Origin: Myxacorys californica WJT36-NPBG1
GTDB lineage: Bacteria; Cyanobacteriota; Cyanobacteriia; Leptolyngbyales; Leptolyngbyaceae
Direction: 5' to 3'
Assembly (NCBI GenBank): GCA_019359315.1
Contig: JAHHHO010000027.1
Span: forward strand, 1 to 64,000
Length of the DNA: 64,000 nucleotides
Made by a program: the position numbers and the translations under genes
The notes under the pieces: generated by a model
Databases searched by the model: none
Told to the model about the DNA's origin: nothing
Seen by the model: the letters and a program-made list of their open reading frames with translations, nothing else
Part shown: one piece after another, positions 31,723 through 32,098 of the stretch
Layout of the letters: every line of letters starts with the position of its first letter
Numbering within the stretch: position 1 is the first letter of the stretch

Positions 31723-31817
31723 GGGCTTGAGCTGCCAGTCAAACGGCTCCTTTGCTCGCGTAAAACTGCTTTCAGCTACCTAGAGACAAGAACAGAGACA
31801 ACTGCCTAAAATAAAAC

Positions 31818-32098
31818 TGCCCACAACCAAATTAAGGTGTGGGCATAGGGACAGTTAAACGCTTGCGTCCATTATGGAATACTCCCTTTGCTGCTCCGTT
31901 ATTGGCAGGACGGTTATTAGAGTGTCCATCCTGAGTTCAACATCTAATTTTCAGACGGCAGACTGGGGAATACCAGTGTGGGCTGGAGTCCTGAATTACG
32001 TTGCGATAAACCTTCAAGATTAGGTTCAAGAAGGCTTAGTTTGCTTCTAGGGAAACCCCTAAATGTATCTTTTACAGCAGCTTTCGGGCTGCTTTTTT
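31818..32098 (+). ncRNA. Candidate structured non-coding RNA ending in a terminator
   Basis: There is no credible gene in 31613-32216, yet the stretch is dense in hairpins: TGCCCACA (31818-31825) / TGTGGGCA (31838-31845), ACTGG-GGAATA-CCAGT near 31964-31979, TAGGG-AAA-CCCCTA near 32048-32061, and a final T-tailed stem AGCAGC/GCTGCT (32076-32093). TAAAAT at 31807-31812 could be a -10 element. The sequence does not match the conserved cores I know for RNase P RNA, tmRNA, SRP RNA or common riboswitches. GAGTTCAAC near 31932-31940 would also fit the right end of an IS200/IS605-type element, so a transposon relic is an alternative. Strand is set by the terminator. Confidence 0.35.
32076..32098 (+). 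terminator. Rho-independent terminator without an assigned gene
   Basis: Stem AGCAGC (32076-32081), loop TTTCGG, stem GCTGCT (32088-32093), then a T run to 32098. It lies 464 bases after the nearest plus-strand stop and 118 bases before the next start, which implies an unannotated transcript. Confidence 0.8.

Follow-up and report, generated by a model that had tools for sequence, protein, structure and literature searches.

An apparently uncatalogued cyanobacterial small-RNA family with a conserved 5′ domain and an intrinsic terminator

The trans-acting small RNAs (sRNAs) of cyanobacteria include Yfr1, Yfr2, NsiR4, and the high-light sRNA PsrR1, which has a size of ~130 nt. According to the text of a survey of conserved Nostoc sRNAs, Yfr1 carries the motif CACUCCUCACACC, and NsiR1 occurs in tandem arrays (PMC4734099). 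PsrR1 has been reported to act on psaL (PMC10989914). The window analyzed here, a 64,000-nt stretch of DNA from Myxacorys californica WJT36-NPBG1, contains a genuine and conserved non-coding RNA gene of ~120 nt on the minus strand, at 31808–31930, that belongs to a real and apparently uncatalogued small-RNA family. We consider it likely that the gene encodes a stand-alone minus-strand small RNA, consisting of a domain and a terminator and most probably acting in trans.

Conservation and structure of the RNA

The sequence and structure conservation of 31808–31930 is far beyond chance and favors the minus strand. Specifically, a structured plus-strand covariance model (R2) detects the element in 123 of the 390 Cyanobacteriia genomes sampled, about a third, mostly as one full-length copy each. 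The element is recovered by all three models used (a sequence-only model, R2, and a structured minus-strand model, R3), and almost every match to the structured models is full length, with E < 1e-8. In the window's own genome, R3 identifies one copy (31812–31930, minus strand, 83.7 bits, E 9e-15). A nucleotide search of relatives returns colinear blocks in same-family genomes, and an alignment of ten homologs has 44 invariant columns, very constantly spaced, within its first ~119 bases. A pattern scan of named genomes yields 75 stretches, nearly all cyanobacterial, from genera including Nostoc, Calothrix, Tolypothrix, Phormidesmis, Myxacorys, and Kamptonema; as many strains of Nostoc and Calothrix carry the RNA, it is open to testing. 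One large-genome genus (L163–L168) has two to four tandem copies per genome, with starts ~230–350 bases apart and with a separate terminator hairpin for each copy.

Read leftward from 31930 to 31808, the predicted transcript would comprise a 5′ domain first and an intrinsic terminator last (Table 1). The domain is closed by pairing of GGACA with UGUCC (P1), and contains an imperfect inner helix, whose sequence is near-invariant (P2), and a variable tip. In an alignment of 60 sequences, 94.3% of the cells of P1, P2, and the terminator hairpin pair, as compared to 87.5% in shuffles; cells with changes on both sides number 70, as compared to 16; and the covariation score is 0.301, as compared to 0.167, with 0 of 500 shuffles as high by any covariation measure. 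Sliding the partner by 1–3 columns reduces pairing to 35–49%. Most double changes are located in the terminator hairpin, in which 92% of cells are paired and 8 of 10 pairs show changes on both sides. P1 (94.7% of cells paired, mainly through invariance and G.U variants) and P2 (97–99% of cells paired) contain few double changes; because these helices are invariant or vary mainly by G.U or on one side, they are well supported, though less directly. P1 has a competitor in the window group: a local GGAC/GUCC pairing, which the single-sequence minimum-energy fold adopts.

In nearly all homologs, a U-run directly follows the GC-rich hairpin, as in an intrinsically terminated small RNA: at least four of the last six aligned bases past the hairpin are T in 57 of 60 homologs, and the terminator character is clearest in homologs with the ends GGGTACTTTTT or GGGTATTTTTT. 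An earlier note on this DNA had proposed an unassigned structured transcript at 31818–32098; the several hairpins that it described there are present, and relatives indeed contain homologs with conserved structure and covariation, on the minus strand.

Table 1. Positions of the RNA, its structural elements, and nearby features in the window
Feature	Position	Strand	Remarks
Small RNA core, conserved	31808–31930	−	5′ end near 31930, 3′ end near 31808; ~120 nt
P1 closing helix, 5′ strand GGACA	31923–31927	−	pairs with UGUCC
P2 inner imperfect helix, 5′ strand (AACCGUC in the window)	31909–31915	−	pairs with 31857–31862
Apical region of domain, variable	31864–31908	−	little column conservation in alignment A6
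P2 inner imperfect helix, 3′ strand	31857–31862	−	inside near-invariant AGCGUUUAACUGU
P1 closing helix, 3′ strand UGUCC	31849–31853	−	pairs with GGACA
Intrinsic terminator hairpin, UGCCCACACC-UUAAUUU-GGUUGUGGGCA	31818–31845	−	10-pair helix
U-rich terminator tail, GUUUUAUUUUAG	31806–31817	−	includes the hexamer TAAAAT as read on the plus strand
22-bp near-invariant block	31973–31994		43–64 nt upstream of the RNA (minus strand); almost unchanged in nine relatives (the same genus and a neighboring one)
Intrinsic terminator	32076–32098	+	conserved in nine relatives

Genomic context and catalogued RNAs

The genes flanking the RNA vary from lineage to lineage, both in identity and in strand. In particular, an MBOAT gene lies head to head with the RNA in the window group, hemB (PF00490) lies head to head with it in Nostocaceae-type genomes, and the neighbors in other lineages are DUF1823, or an unnamed protein followed by a NIL/4Fe-4S ferredoxin. 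All four neighbor-strand combinations are present among the 138 loci with both neighbors, and the element holds orthologous intergenic positions within whole lineages. In the window, the neighboring ORFs are a 466-aa ORF, which we take to be RNA methyltransferase-like, the MBOAT gene, and a cupin gene. The RNA is independent of its neighbor genes and, in view of the lineage-varying neighbors and strands and of the tandem copies with their own terminators, is best read as an independent trans-acting RNA. A riboswitch, attenuator, or leader of MBOAT or hemB was considered and rejected, since the RNA lies on the opposite strand and the downstream genes vary by lineage.

An origin of the conserved sequence by processing of the 3′ UTR or terminator region of a minus-strand gene on its upstream side, with no independent sRNA gene, is unlikely. 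In 51 of 144 loci there is indeed a minus-strand gene on that side of the RNA, at times only 6–40 nt away, and the promoter data are consistent with such an origin: no −10 or other promoter signal was found at a constant distance from the RNA 5′ end across homologs, and the RNA may thus arise by processing of a longer one. Against this, the upstream-side genes are unrelated from lineage to lineage, and where the 5′-side gene is divergent (MBOAT in the window, hemB in Nostocaceae) the RNA must have a promoter of its own.

The 5′ end of the independent RNA is not fixed, and conservation begins near GGACA; in Myxacorys californica, transcription would presumably start near 31930. In the window group, the 22-bp block upstream of the RNA is a candidate promoter or operator, or a candidate 5′ extension. 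In several families (for example, at loci L053, L057, and L143), an GTTACnnTTTnnGATAC element is present on the RNA's own strand, 23–121 nt upstream. This element is possibly a promoter or regulator site; its reading as an HLR1/RpaB-like site was rejected as a poor fit to the consensus.

A decayed duplicate (89%) of window positions 31731–31866 is present on another contig of the same genome (C108:1518–1672; L002), where its neighbors are an IS4/5-family transposase and a complete PPC-domain gene. Of the PPC-domain gene, only the last ten codons remain in the window (31731–31763, AASQTAPLLA*), which probably marks a rearrangement breakpoint.

A search with Rfam 15 yielded no family above its gathering score in the window, where there were 0 matches, and none covering the RNA at 32 homologous loci. 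Nor did the window yield any tRNA or tmRNA gene. The earlier proposal of an sRNA other than RNase P RNA, tmRNA, or SRP RNA is supported. 6S RNA (RF00013) has no match at the element, the genome's 6S RNA being located at C18:39610–39794 (108 bits), and NsiR1 (RF02399) has no match to, and no overlap with, the RNA. In two relatives of the same genus (L057 and L060), NsiR1 and the RNA are ~400 nt apart.

A divergent relationship to a described cyanobacterial sRNA outside Rfam, such as PsrR1, appears improbable. The RNA resembles PsrR1 in size and in its wide distribution, but its pairing with psaL is not unusual: two psaL start regions give −20.4 and −30.8 kcal/mol, as compared to a background mean of −32.7 kcal/mol, in a weak test of pairing energy alone in one genome. 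Moreover, the conserved bases of the RNA lie in stems and not in one open seed. No match to the RNA was found in the portions consulted of the survey of conserved Nostoc sRNAs (PMC4734099), and no description of the RNA was found in the literature searched on the hemB leader, conserved Nostoc sRNAs, Trichodesmium and Nodularia transcriptomes, and PsrR1.

Strand and coding potential

The RNA is encoded on the minus strand. For 60 diverse homologs and 20 pairs, the minus-strand reading gives 990 Watson-Crick, 126 G.U, 11 A.C, and 56 other cells. The 126 G.U pairs of the minus strand become 126 A.C mismatches on the plus strand, and, correspondingly, in the plus-strand reading of the first hairpin C.A and A.C mismatches are common and G.U pairs are rare, the opposite of what RNA tolerates. 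The A-run ahead of this hairpin on the plus strand is a U-run after the hairpin on the minus strand, indicating that the hairpin is an intrinsic terminator. The fold stability of 31818–32098 is mild on the plus strand (z −1.9) as compared to the minus strand (z −4.1); for the core alone, the single-sequence values are too close to tell the strands apart (z −2.6 for minus, −2.2 for plus). The bit scores of R2 and R3 are close, so that the score comparison alone cannot decide the strand.

These data make it very unlikely that the RNA is the plus-strand sRNA of 250–290 nt, running from TAAAAT at 31807 to a terminator at 32098, that the earlier note had proposed; the plus-strand reading, modeled first (R2), was overturned by the pattern of A.C mismatches, which outnumber G.U pairs ~11 to 1 on that strand. 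The −10-like hexamer exists at 31807–31812, but it is the T-tail of the minus-strand terminator read backwards, and plus-strand promoter matches are no more frequent than chance predicts (1 found, 1.2 expected). The T-tailed terminator proposed at 32076–32098 is likewise present (AGCAGCTTTCGGGCTGCTTTTTT) and kept in nine relatives, and the 22-bp block lies between it and TAAAAT; it is not, however, the 3′ end of the conserved RNA, and the core occurs without any downstream plus-strand terminator in many lineages. Strand, start, end, and length are therefore revised to those of the leftward RNA. A second, short transcript, running divergently from the minus-strand RNA, probably ends at the plus-strand terminator. 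This terminator is common to the relatives, and in many other families it is preceded by a CTCATGCA box (window 32000–32098). The second suggestion of the earlier note, the right end of an IS200/IS605-type element with a remaining guide RNA, is not supported: no TnpA, TnpB, or transposase gene is nearby, and relatives keep synteny. The GAGTTCAAC sequence to which it pointed is present at 31933 but is not conserved.

The RNA is non-coding. As the earlier note observed, 31818–32098 is otherwise gene-free, and no ORF of annotated-gene size was found within it; a protein-coding alignment was named there as a finding that would speak against an RNA, and no conserved frame was found on either strand, every core frame having stops in most of the 60 rows and frame shifts being present as well. 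A short minus-strand protein gene (ATGGACACT...AGCGTTTAA, for example MDTLITVLPITEQQREYSIMDASV in the window) is extremely improbable and largely refuted by its frames, since the ATG is in frame 0 with the conserved TAA in 69 of the 94 sequences having both but in frame 1 or 2 in the other 25, internal stops are present in many, the ATG is lost in dozens of homologs, and pairing accounts for the conserved bases of the core.

Possible function and relation to described RNAs

If it is expressed, cyanobacteria possess here a widely conserved RNA that has no Rfam entry or, in the open literature searched, description. Its single-copy retention across families, next to unrelated neighbors, suggests an important function in trans. 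Most likely it would act in trans, perhaps by holding a protein or by presenting short conserved bulges to targets. Because conservation is concentrated at the paired base of the domain and its surroundings, and does not form a single open stretch, a protein-holding structural RNA, or one presenting bulges, fits better than a classical antisense seed. The mechanism and the targets are inferred. Possibly, although we lean against it, the RNA is an uncatalogued structural RNA, retained in single copy by several families of filamentous and large-genome cyanobacteria, and serves as the RNA part of a ribonucleoprotein or as a lineage-specific global regulator.

The RNA is similar to 6S RNA in being small and structured, in having one copy per genome, and in having a long hairpin-like domain. 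It is similar to NsiR1 in being a cyanobacterial sRNA with tandem arrays. It is similar to Yfr1, Yfr2, PsrR1, and NsiR4 in being intergenic, non-coding, and short, in having an intrinsic terminator, and in showing wide cyanobacterial conservation with occasional multiple copies. It differs from Yfr1 in the location of its conserved bases: in Yfr1 these form an open seed, whereas in the RNA described here they form the closing helix and the inner helix.
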